This document shows positions 16,436 to 20,306 of a DNA stretch of 20,426 nucleotides, piece after piece (the first letter of the stretch is position 1; each line of letters starts with the position of its first letter). The position numbers and the translations under genes are program-made. The notes beneath the pieces are model-generated. The model saw nothing but the letters and a program-made list of their open reading frames with translations, had not been told where the DNA came from and did no database searches. The DNA lies in the IMG/VR virus record IMGVR_UViG_3300025889_001197, positions 1-20,426 of that record, one strand, 5' to 3'. Source of the stretch: a virus.

Positions 16436-18088
16436 TTATATATTAAATCCGTAGTCTCTTAATGTATCTAATATTATATTAGAATAATATGTTGGGTCTG
16501 ATGAATAAAGAACCCCATAATTAACTCCAGATAATATAGATGCTTCAACTCTATCTGAAAGACCCTTTGATCCTTCAAATCCATCTGACCCACTAAAAAT
16601 GTTCTCTATGAATCTATTACTATAGGTGTTATCATAATATTGTTTTACTCTAATAAACCTAGATAAATGAGCACCATAATCTACTGTATTTAAAAAAGCC
16701 CTATATTCTGCAAGATCATCCTTATATAATTGACTTGCACCACCTGAATATGTAAAATCACCAATTTGATACATTCCACCTAATTCATCTCCAAAGTAAA
16801 TGTTTAAAACTTTTGTAGAATCAGAATTTACTTTTTCTAGGTTTGCAAATATTTTTAAAAATCTCTCTCTATCGTCTGTGCTTACTACAGGTGCATCTGT
16901 ATATTTTTTTAGAGCATCTGATGAATTTATTATAGCTACTCTTTTTTCATATTCAACTGGATCATTATTATATACTGGTAGTAATTCATTTTTAAGAGAA
17001 CCATTAACCATATTTTGTAGTTGAATTAATGTTGACCCCATAGATCCTGAATCGTCAAATATTATATTTATTTCTAGTTTATCATTTACCTTTAATTCAG
17101 GTAAACCTAAATCAAAACTTTCTCCACCCTTTTCGGTAGTACCAGTACATATAGCTGTAGAAACAGTACCTTCTTGTGCTGATATTAATTGATTTTCTCC
17201 ATTTGCAAGTACAACAGTTTGAGTATCTCCATTAACATCTGTGTAGTTGAATGTAGTATTACCAGTAGTACAAGTACCAGTAAGTGTATAATAATATGTT
17301 GTTGTTGAATAAACATCTGGGCAATTCAATCTAAAAGAATAATTATCATTTGGAATAAAAGCAGATGCAGTTAAATTTACCTCTTCAGGTGATGCTGCTG
17401 TTTTATTTATAGTTAATGTAGTAGGGGAATCTTTAGTTGATGGCTCTCCTGTATTTATGTCTCCTGCTGCAATTCCTTCATCAGCCAAAACATCATCATA
17501 CCAATCAGCCCCTATATATCCTGAGGTAGCTGTATTACCATCCCATTCTAAATCAAATTTAACAGGCACATCTTGCACCCCACTAACATTTAAGAATTCT
17601 ATTTCTACAGTACCTATTTTGTCCCCTACGTTTAAAATATATTTTTTTTCATTTACAAAACTAGCCTCATTGACAATATCCCCACAATCTACAGTAAATG
17701 TCTCTATAGGCTTGGATACTGCTTCTTGCCAATGGACAGTTGCTAATGCTGATGCTGTATCTCCATCGTTGTCTGTTACTGTTACAGAGAATACTTGAGA
17801 TTCTATAAGTGTGGTATTAGTGGCTGTAATAGATTCTGTAGTTTCTCCAACTCCAAATCCACCCCACTCATAGCTAACAATAGTACCATCGCTATCTGTA
17901 GCTACTGCTGTAAGAGTTACAGTTTCTCCTAAAGTTGGATATTGATTACTAACAGTTATCGTAACAGTAGGAGGTGTATTTTCTTCTATAGGATCAGGTG
18001 GGGTAACAGGGGTGGGTGCTTCCCTAGAATCAATATAGTAAGGACTTCTTACATTTATTCTTTTATCGTTTGTGCTTATTGTCGACAT
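16436..18088 (-). CDS. PKD plus von Willebrand A domain tail protein (550 aa)
   Basis: The N-terminus contains INVRSPYYID, a short motif common to phage tail proteins of this group, then a Pro-rich linker (22 to 40). Residues about 38 to 122 form a PKD/Ig-like domain (PTLGETVTLTAVATDSDG, then IVSYEWGG, closing FSVTVTDNDGDTASALATVHW in two parts). A middle beta region (130 to 325) includes a Cys-containing TGTCTTGNTTFNYTDVNGD segment. Residues about 338 to 550 form a von Willebrand A domain with a MIDAS-type DxSxS motif at 345 to 349 (FDDSGSM), and FGDE near 432 as a later acidic site. A divalent metal ion is probably bound. There is no signal peptide or membrane segment, so it acts in the virion. 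Ligand binding at the tail tip is inferred. Confidence 0.78.
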   Translation of the reverse strand: MSTISTNDKRINVRSPYYIDSREAPTPVTPPDPIEENTPPTVTITVSNQYPTLGETVTLTAVATDSDGTIVSYEWGGFGVGETTESITATNTTLIESQVFSVTVTDNDGDTASALATVHWQEAVSKPIETFTVDCGDIVNEASFVNEKKYILNVGDKIGTVEIEFLNVSGVQDVPVKFDLEWDGNTATSGYIGADWYDDVLADEGIAAGDINTGEPSTKDSPTTLTINKTAASPEEVNLTASAFIPNDNYSFRLNCPDVYSTTTYYYTLTGTCTTGNTTFNYTDVNGDTQTVVLANGENQLISAQEGTVSTAICTGTTEKGGESFDLGLPELKVNDKLEINIIFDDSGSMGSTLIQLQNMVNGSLKNELLPVYNNDPVEYEKRVAIINSSDALKKYTDAPVVSTDDRERFLKIFANLEKVNSDSTKVLNIYFGDELGGMYQIGDFTYSGGASQLYKDDLAEYRAFLNTVDYGAHLSRFIRVKQYYDNTYSNRFIENIFSGSDGFEGSKGLSDRVEASILSGVNYGVLYSSDPTYYSNIILDTLRDYGFNI

Positions 18089-18657: not shown

Positions 18658-19139
18658 TGAGTGCCATCCTCATTAATTAGCTTAGTCTCGTTGTTCGGTA
18701 TCTCTATATTTAGATTGATAGACCATCCTGTAAGTAGATTCTCAAATCTATCTTCAAATTGCGTGGCAGTTGGAACATCGTTAATTTCGTAGTTGTTATC
18801 ATTCATTCCTCCTCTACGCAAACTAGATTGCAACCCATTAATCACACTCAACATTGTATTCAAGATATCTTCTTTGTTGTCTAATCCTAAGTGAGGAGAA
18901 TCTAAGTCTTGTTTATCATCTTTATCTTCGTCTACAATATCCATTGCAATTACGTTGATAGAAAAAGATATATAGTGGTCGTAGAACGATACATCGTTTA
19001 CAATTATATGGGCAAGTGGGAAGATAGTTGATTTGGATAGGTCAACCTCCATAAGATCTCCTTTGGTAACAGTATTGATGTTTACATTGCCAATAAGATA
19101 ATTGTAAATATTGTCTATTAGGTCGTAATATTCTTTCAT
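18651..19139 (-). CDS. Tail terminator / completion-like protein (162 aa)
   Basis: A 162-residue acidic protein with an ending DRFENLLTGWSINLNIEIPN that resembles the strand-rich end of small tail terminator or tail completion proteins in Bacteroidota phages. The N-terminal half has an IIVNDVSFYDHYISFSINVI segment, also typical: a strand pair after a conserved H-I-x-V-N position. The middle (DEDKDDKQDLDSPH) is a highly acidic loop. It overlaps the -1 frame end of the tail assembly chaperone by ATGA, so it may be translated chiefly by ribosomes that finish the fusion. It is coupled to the gp10-like gene by a 7-base overlap. Family assignment is tentative. Confidence 0.6.
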   Translation of the reverse strand: MKEYYDLIDNIYNYLIGNVNINTVTKGDLMEVDLSKSTIFPLAHIIVNDVSFYDHYISFSINVIAMDIVDEDKDDKQDLDSPHLGLDNKEDILNTMLSVINGLQSSLRRGGMNDNNYEINDVPTATQFEDRFENLLTGWSINLNIEIPNNETKLINEDGTQC

Positions 19140-19899
19140 CGTTTCATAGATTTTTGTATCATTCTAGTTTCTAATTCGTTTTTCTCTTTTTCAAATGTTA
19201 GATAAGTGAGACACTTAAATATTGGTTCTTTTGTAATCTCGTCAAACTTCGTGATGTCTCCTTTAGCAAGTCCATAAATTGATTGATACCAACCCCACTT
19301 TTTTCCAAAGCCTCCTGAAGCTGTGAGTTGTTCTGTTCCTTCTTCATCGTGTTCTCCAAATAGGCTAGGGAAGCTGTCGATAACTCTGTCCCTAAATCGT
19401 AAAAAAAAACCATACACCCCATAACTACACTAAGTGGCATTTCCTTCATCCATTGTTGTATATCCTCATTTGGCTTATACGGAGCAATTGTATATTTATC
19501 TTTCATCTTGGCATTAACTGGGCGATATAGAACCGCCATCGCTTTATGGATATTTTGCCAATCAGAAATGGTTGCTTCAATATCAACATACTCTCCCAAA
19601 CTCATATCGTCAAGTTTAGGAATAAAACCGAACTCTACATCTCCTAACTCAAAATGTCGTATCAAAGAGAACTTCTCCTTGAAAGCCTTAGATAACACTT
19701 CGAGAATACGATTAAAATCCACAAGAGGGATAGCATCTACCTCATTTAAGTTTATGTTACAAAATATTTCAACGAGCTTCTTGTTTACAAAATCAGTTGC
19801 CTCCTCAGAATCATTCTGGTCTACAATCTTCATATAATGCTGATATTGACCAAGAGTAATATCCTCTAAAGATGTTGGCACTTCAATTTCTATCTTCAT
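19136..19899 (-). CDS. Tail assembly chaperone, -1 frameshift fusion (gpGT-like, 254 aa)
   Basis: The fusion form is made when ribosomes slip back one base at the T-tract: codons 165 and 166 (TTT TTT) re-pair on the preceding T, after which reading continues as LRFRDRVIDSFPSLFGEHDE to TGA at 19136. The product would have 166 shared residues plus 88 new ones. The new C-terminus has an acidic linker and the signature KKWGWYQSIYGLAKGDITKF with DEITKEP and CLTYLTFEKEKNELE. This is the tape-measure-binding T-type region of such chaperones in Bacteroidota phages (family knowledge). The alternate frame has no ATG of its own near the start, only a GTG at 19417, so frameshifting is the simplest source. 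Its stop overlaps the next start as ATGA. The slip site is inferred from sequence, not shown. Confidence 0.75.
19198..19899 (-). CDS. Tail assembly chaperone, non-shifted form (gpG-like, 233 aa)
   Basis: This is the zero-frame product of a tail assembly chaperone, which coats the tape measure during tail assembly. The protein begins EIEVPTSLEDITLGQYQHYM and has a core region ELGDVEFGFIPKLDDMSLGE followed by YVDIEATISDWQNIHKAMAV with LYRPV, all typical of these proteins in flavobacterial phages. After MGCMVFFYDLG (160 to 170) it continues for 67 more residues (SLAYLENTMKKEQNNSQ; GVGINQFMDLLKETS). That extension also looks like a real protein end. Its 3' part overlaps the alternate frame for about 200 bases. 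It has no close SD site; its leader is A/T-rich. The location upstream of the tape measure fits the lambda-type order. Confidence 0.82.
   Translation of the reverse strand: MKIEIEVPTSLEDITLGQYQHYMKIVDQNDSEEATDFVNKKLVEIFCNINLNEVDAIPLVDFNRILEVLSKAFKEKFSLIRHFELGDVEFGFIPKLDDMSLGEYVDIEATISDWQNIHKAMAVLYRPVNAKMKDKYTIAPYKPNEDIQQWMKEMPLSVVMGCMVFFYDLGTELSTASLAYLENTMKKEQNNSQLQEALEKSGVGINQFMDLLKETSRSLTRLQKNQYLSVSLI
19366..19410 (-). promoter_or_regulatory. Programmed -1 frameshift signal: slippery T tract and stem-loop
   Basis: On the minus strand, GTT TTT TTT TAC holds the canonical heptamer T TTT TTT (19408 to 19402) in the correct phase inside a run of nine T. Seven bases later TAGGGA (19394 to 19389) can pair with TCCCTA (19371 to 19366) around a 17-base loop, with one extra T-G pair outside. 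A slippery heptamer in phase, 5 to 9 bases of spacing and a stem are the three usual parts of a -1 signal. Confidence 0.78.
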
Positions 19900-19968
19900 A
19901 TAAAAATAATTATTTTATTGGTTTCTGTATCTATTAGTTCCACCTGCTAAAATGGCAGATATATATAT

Positions 19969-20091
19969 ACATAGTATATAACATAGTTATAAGTATACTT
20001 AGTATAGTTAACATAGTATAGTACTTGTACATTGTTATATACATAGTGTATAGTACTTAGTTGAATATTAAAATAAATAATAGTACTTAGT
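19969..20091. repeat. Iterated ACWTAGT heptamer block in AT-rich DNA
   Basis: Read on the plus strand, exact ACATAGT occurs at 19969, 19981, 20011 and 20041, and ACTTAGT at 19997, 20055 and 20085, with a degenerate ACATTGT at 20029. Spacing is mostly 12 to 18 bases. A longer 13-base copy, ATAGTACTTAGTT, is repeated exactly at 20050 and 20080. The block lies between the 71-aa gene and the chaperone, in the longest non-coding stretch of the window (19900 to 20090). Iterated sites of this sort can bind a replication or regulatory protein. Simple AT-rich drift is an alternative. Confidence 0.65.
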
Positions 20092-20306
20092 TATATACTA
20101 TACTCAGTATAATAATAGCAATACAGTTCCCATATCTTAATATCTACCTGTTCTTTTTTATATTTCTTGCCACTACGAGTAATCTTTCCGTTGTCGTTTA
20201 TTTCTATCTCATATAGCCTATCGCCTTTCTTATTTGGCAAACAGTATATCGTTATACCATTCTCCACACACCATTGAAAAGCATCGTATTGGAATTCTTC
20301 AAACAT
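20091..20306 (-). CDS. Small hypothetical protein (71 aa)
   Basis: A 71-residue protein of unknown function. It is rich in Tyr, Lys and Glu, with a compact alpha/beta look: FQYDAFQWCVENGITIYCLP, then a KKGDRLYEIEINDNGKI strand pair, then a basic turn (SGKKYKKEQ) and a C-terminal helix (IWELYCYYYTEY). This plan (Trp-Cys near residues 12 to 13, a small beta hairpin, a closing helix with W-E-L-Y) resembles small hypothetical proteins of flavobacterial phages, but I cannot name a family. It is the first gene of the visible set. Its 3' end reaches the repeat block, which separates it from the chaperone, so it may belong to an earlier transcription unit. The start is the ATG at 20306. Confidence 0.6.
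   Translation of the reverse strand: MFEEFQYDAFQWCVENGITIYCLPNKKGDRLYEIEINDNGKITRSGKKYKKEQVDIKIWELYCYYYTEYSI

Follow-up and report, generated by a model that had tools for sequence, protein, structure and literature searches.

Frameshifting in tail chaperone genes is textbook ribosomal recoding in phages. In lambda, the two products of G/GT both bind the tape measure protein, the long product binds the tail tube protein, and the products are made at a set ratio. The same frame can also be reached in another way: the RNA:DNA hybrid in RNA polymerase is 9-10 bp long, and an mRNA with one inserted U is translated in the frame that a -1 ribosomal shift would reach. On runs of nine A or T, slippage of bacterial RNA polymerase is efficient in vivo (PMC5009743), and in many genomes selection against A/T runs begins at nine (PMC1088944). 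Programmed transcriptional slippage on nine A or T is described for Thermus dnaX, Shigella mxiE and spa13, and IS elements (PMC5009743, PMC1088944). In E. coli, U_UUU_UUU is rated a weak ribosomal site compared with A_AAA_AAG (PMC5009743). In the literature that we searched, coverage of which was incomplete, there was no description of a tail chaperone made by transcriptional slippage. The same literature contained neither a description of RNA polymerase slippage in Bacteroidota nor a slippage threshold of Bacteroidota RNA polymerase on T9.

Here we describe a gene of a marine Bacteroidota phage, encoded on the minus strand of an IMG/VR virus record of 20,426 bases. This whole stretch is called the window.

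Results

The features of the locus are listed in Table 1. A first-pass annotation of the window had described a complete -1 frameshift signal in a tail assembly chaperone, consisting of an in-phase heptamer, a downstream stem and an alternate frame with the WGWYQSIYGLAKGD signature. The T TTT TTT is present within nine T and is in phase: it is formed by the last base of codon 164 and codons 165 and 166. From the T9 run, the -1 frame with WGWYQSIYGLAKGD is open down to the stop at 19136, and the proposed fusion length of 254 aa is right. The T9 at 19409..19401 is the longest A/T run anywhere in the window. The PHROG family matched by the 233-aa ORF (phrog_32199, E 9e-26) is annotated as 'unknown function'. 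Upstream of the gene, at 19960-20110, there is an AT-rich non-coding stretch with repeated TAGTACTTAGTT-like words.

Table 1 Features of the two-frame locus in the window
Feature	Position	Strand	Remark
0-frame ORF, short product (gpG-like)	19198..19899	(-)	233 aa
Conserved N domain	residues 1-166 of the 233-aa ORF		AlphaFold2 pLDDT 95
Putative slip site, T9 run	19401..19409	(-)	9-11 T in 489/489 intact relatives
In-phase heptamer T TTT TTT inside T9	19402-19408	(-)	
-1 frame C-terminal part, LRFRDRV...WGWYQSIYGLAKGD...MKR	19136..19402	(-)	would be read after the slip; -1 relation also in relatives
Next gene, 162 aa	18651..19139	(-)	start overlaps the -1 frame stop; match to phrog_30964, 'unknown function'
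Hairpin proposed earlier, TAGGGA/TCCCTA, 6 bp	19366..19394	(-)	in window, not conserved
Candidate tape measure protein, 686 aa	10777..12837	(-)	assigned from length, composition and order

Relatives were sought in viral contigs, GTDB genomes, sampled genomes related to a match, and named phages. Profile HMMs of the N part (as far as the FF ahead of the shift) and of the C part were run in separate frames; neither the frame relation nor the T run was assumed. The search patterns for viral contigs excluded the T run, and one pattern of the GTDB scan included the FF motif. We obtained 489 intact two-frame loci with 352 distinct junctions, and the C part was in the -1 frame in 489/489. Among them, 248 loci share less than 95% and 34 less than 50% amino acid identity with each other, and the loci diverge to about 26% amino acid identity compared with the window. 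The cultured Nonlabens phages P12024L and P12024S are included and share the two-frame layout and the T run. Some loci are duplicates from contigs that were retrieved twice, and non-redundant counts are to be preferred. Among named phages, blastn gave no match and tblastn matched P12024L and P12024S only. One genome was positive among 396 sampled from the phylum of a match, and three among 400 sampled from the family of a match. In a 3.9-Mb bacterial contig, a prophage-like locus (L344/L346) has the same gene order, an agreeing T run and, in L346, a candidate tape measure gene in the same place as in the window. Contig IMGVR_UViG_3300046167_000393 carries the gene at both ends (L018/L019, 1-4522 and 33826-37967), which is either a terminal repeat or two copies.

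The run consists of nine T in 454 of the 489 intact loci, ten T in 34 and eleven T in one; runs of seven or eight T were absent from this set. In non-redundant counting, 145/145 loci have the T run at this place. The rest of the same 145 loci (775 kb) contains 22 sense-strand T runs of at least nine, namely 21 T9 and one T10 or longer. Thus, the T run far exceeds chance expectation. The first-pass annotation had proposed an alignment of relatives as a check on the T tract and the stem: the tract is kept (9-11 T, 489/489) but the stem is not. Comparison of the sequences strongly supports the idea that the gene is a conserved two-frame unit with two products, the longer of which would require the frame to change by a net -1 within the T run.

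The T run occupies three phases: xTT TTT TTT Tyz; xxT TTT TTT TTG; and TTT TTT TTT Cyz or Gyz. Usually, the heptamer is flanked by one T at codon 164 position 2 and another at codon 167 position 1, and in loci with this common phase codon 167 is always T-initial (Y, W, F, L, S, C). All seven non-redundant tips without T at codon 164 position 2 (GGT, AAT, GCT, AGT) have TTG or TTA at codon 167. Likewise, the 11 non-redundant tips without T at codon 167 position 1 (CTG, GCT, GTT) all have TTT at codon 164. In other words, the run is at least nine in every tip that lost one flanking T. The compensating states account for 15% (TT. at codon 167) and 4% (TTT at codon 164) of tree length. The joint chance of compensation is about 1e-11 with 3 and 6 inferred events, a value that assumes independence of these events and comes from parsimony on a single tree. 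Smaller locus sets give the same picture. According to the genes' own codon use, V-F-F with T at all three third bases is expected in about 19%, and the third-base choice at V-F-F alone is also far from chance. The residue of codon 164 is V, L or I, and that of the -1 codon is L or F. The constraint of two proteins coded in two frames can explain part of the conservation of the flanks, but not the compensated cases.

The hairpin in the window has the geometry that had been proposed: TAGGGA (19394..19389) and TCCCTA (19371..19366) form 6 bp with a 17-nt loop, separated from the heptamer by a 7-nt spacer. In the window, the arms fold in silico, but the stability of this region does not exceed that of shuffled sequence (z = 0.25). 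In the relatives, the stem was assessed by pairing counts, slid partners and shuffles. All six pairs are retained in 2/48 lineages, and pairing is 0.563 vs 0.575 with shuffled partners. Extra downstream folding is absent from 50-nt segments that begin 5, 25 and 45 nt after the run (mean z 0.08, 0.01 and 0.01; SE 0.09-0.10), and this analysis gave no sign of a strong upstream hairpin. With pairing no better than shuffled and average folding, the downstream stem was rejected as a conserved element, and the description of the site as a complete frameshift signal with a stem is not supported. Among simple stems, no conserved downstream stimulatory structure for -1 ribosomal frameshifting was found.

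On the minus strand, the gene order is chaperone, 162 aa, 189 aa, 550 aa, 362 aa, 791 aa and the candidate tape measure protein of 686 aa. A candidate tail tube gene (182 aa) is placed after a candidate capsid gene. With the neighbours identified in this tentative way, the chaperone gene of the window did not lie between genes for the major tail protein and the tape measure protein. Among the neighbours, one is a protease (PF14550, E 4e-16) and another has a portal match (PF04860, E 2e-9) that falls slightly short of the cut-off. The 550-aa protein among the tail genes (16436-18088, minus strand) matches the PKD domain model PF22352 (E 2.5e-7) and contains DDSGSMGS, which resembles a von Willebrand A metal site. 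The C domain of the two-frame gene is predicted to be a small helical unit (pLDDT 76). No chaperone model in Pfam or PHROG matches the N or C part, and a single family member matches PF06854 Phage_Gp15 (E 0.023). The fold of the N domain has no match in the PDB; one weak viral fold match is named tail assembly chaperone (E 0.23). Thus, the name tail assembly chaperone given in the first-pass annotation agrees with gene order and layout, and is matched by neither a family model nor a solved structure. From the gene setting and the two-product layout, a role as tail assembly chaperone is plausible.

A distant fold match to the N domain is gp10 of Flavobacterium phage 6H (L338 10352-10927, minus strand). 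It has an in-phase T TTT TTC near its 3' end, but the -1 frame stops at once, so this gene is uninformative here. There is a long open stretch further on in its -1 frame.

Discussion

We favour, with some confidence, programmed transcriptional slippage at the T run over plain -1 ribosomal shifting, because RNA polymerase slips on nine A or T, its hybrid is 9-10 bp and an inserted U gives the -1 frame. From one start, two proteins would be made, one of 233 aa by straight reading and one of 254 aa, a fusion with the C-terminal domain of the -1 frame. The switch would be the homopolymer of at least nine T. RNA polymerase would slip while its hybrid is all rU:dA, and some mRNAs would gain one extra U (U10 from T9). 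The fusion in the -1 frame would then result precisely from normal translation of the U10 mRNA. Ribosomes may also slip to some extent on the in-phase U UUU UUU within the run. If lambda gpG/gpGT is a guide, both products would be tail assembly chaperones at a set ratio. We infer both RNA polymerase as the slipping machine and the short:long ratio. As expected of a 9A/9T transcriptional slippage site, the locus has an A/T homopolymer whose length stays at nine or more irrespective of reading phase. In contrast, a stop in the third frame soon after the run (within 3 codons in 94% of loci vs 38% in the control) was discounted as support for slippage because the coded proteins (F-R and L-G) force TTTAG.

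A lambda G/GT-like mechanism, in which the ribosome simply undergoes a programmed -1 shift on U UUU UUU, is a possible but distinctly less probable explanation; the extra T would then come from the amino acids of the two frames. The heptamer T TTT TTT is in phase in all loci, in agreement with X XXY YYZ. Because any nine-T run contains an in-phase T TTT TTT, ribosomal slippage retains some probability at every such run. The flanking T coincide with codons for hydrophobic or aromatic residues. Furthermore, -1 ribosomal shifting is common in tail chaperones (PMC5009743), with experimental efficiencies of 6-7% for one chaperone cluster (PMC3711429). However, since a ribosomal -1 site needs seven T only, a heptamer-only site does not require a nine-T minimum, and this minimum is maintained in all three phases with compensation. 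In the aligned family, the T run is never replaced by a G-ending or A-rich heptamer. Retention of at least nine T in any phase is more readily explained by RNA polymerase slippage than by a T7 heptamer and, together with the unconserved hairpin, suggests that RNA polymerase rather than the ribosome may slip. Thus, of the ribosomal slip proposed in the first-pass annotation, the need for a net shift of -1 in the T run stands (489/489), and the ribosome as the slipping machine has become doubtful.

Separate translation of the C-terminal part by re-initiation near the 0-frame stop, so that no fusion is made, is very improbable. This idea would agree with the records of P12024L and P12024S, in which two CDS overlap by one base and the second starts at an ATG there. 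However, only 8/145 loci have a -1 frame ATG anywhere from the run to the first W. Moreover, conservation of the -1 frame begins at the run (F-F-L-x-F-R), and the 0-frame stop shifts (175 vs 233 aa) while the run stays. Replication slippage, giving DNA-level variants with the fusion in one frame, has hardly any probability: one pair of loci, L368 (T11, one frame) and L127 (T10, two frames), is 99.8% identical with a single gap, but 489 loci are in the two-frame state, only L368 and L379 (a deletion) carry both parts in one frame, and such variation is of no benefit to a tail gene whose two products are needed in the same cell.

The identity of the L368 and L127 contigs spans 3.2 kb, and their difference in the run is one T, which is either a natural indel or an assembly error. 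In L379 (2501-3196), a deletion that takes out the T run together with the last part of the N domain fuses both parts into one 231-aa ORF. L432 is a damaged copy with a T10 still nearby. Several BFVD viral proteins of 226-268 aa, among them A0A6J5N0W0, A0A516L611, A0A516L5A8, A0A6J7WJY4 and A0A6J5SVK3 with 241-267 aa, match both domain models; therefore, more distant single-ORF relatives probably exist.

On balance, we lean slightly towards the proposal that a large and widespread clade of Bacteroidota phages sets the short:long ratio of its tail chaperone by RNA polymerase slippage on at least nine T, which would replace a lambda-like ribosomal frameshift. If the slippage is at transcription, the ratio would be set by RNA polymerase, and the two-product logic would have evolved by two routes. 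If this is true, annotators should join such pairs, which are now split hypothetical proteins, at the T9. The loci also provide a clean natural collection of T9 sites in Bacteroidota that lends itself to testing.

The known systems on nine A or T and the present locus share an A/T homopolymer where mRNA indels alter the product that is read. Unlike Thermus dnaX, Shigella mxiE and spa13, and the IS elements, the gene here is a phage structural gene with a conserved overlapping -1 frame. As in lambda gpG/gpGT, a second ORF overlaps the first in the -1 frame (conserved in 489/489 intact loci), a short and a long product have a common N part, and the gene is located in the phage structural gene block. 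The present system differs from lambda in that the putative slip site is an obligatory 9-11 T in any phase without a conserved stem, neither sequence nor fold clearly matches a named chaperone family, and the candidate tape measure gene is several genes away. A further close system is gp40/gp41 and gp38/gp39 of P12024L and P12024S (Inhavirus), which are the same gene with T9 and the -1 relation at about 31% amino acid identity. In the records, each pair stands as two distinct hypothetical proteins that immediately follow the terminase large subunit, and in P12024L the 0-frame ends after 175 aa, compared with 233 aa in the window.
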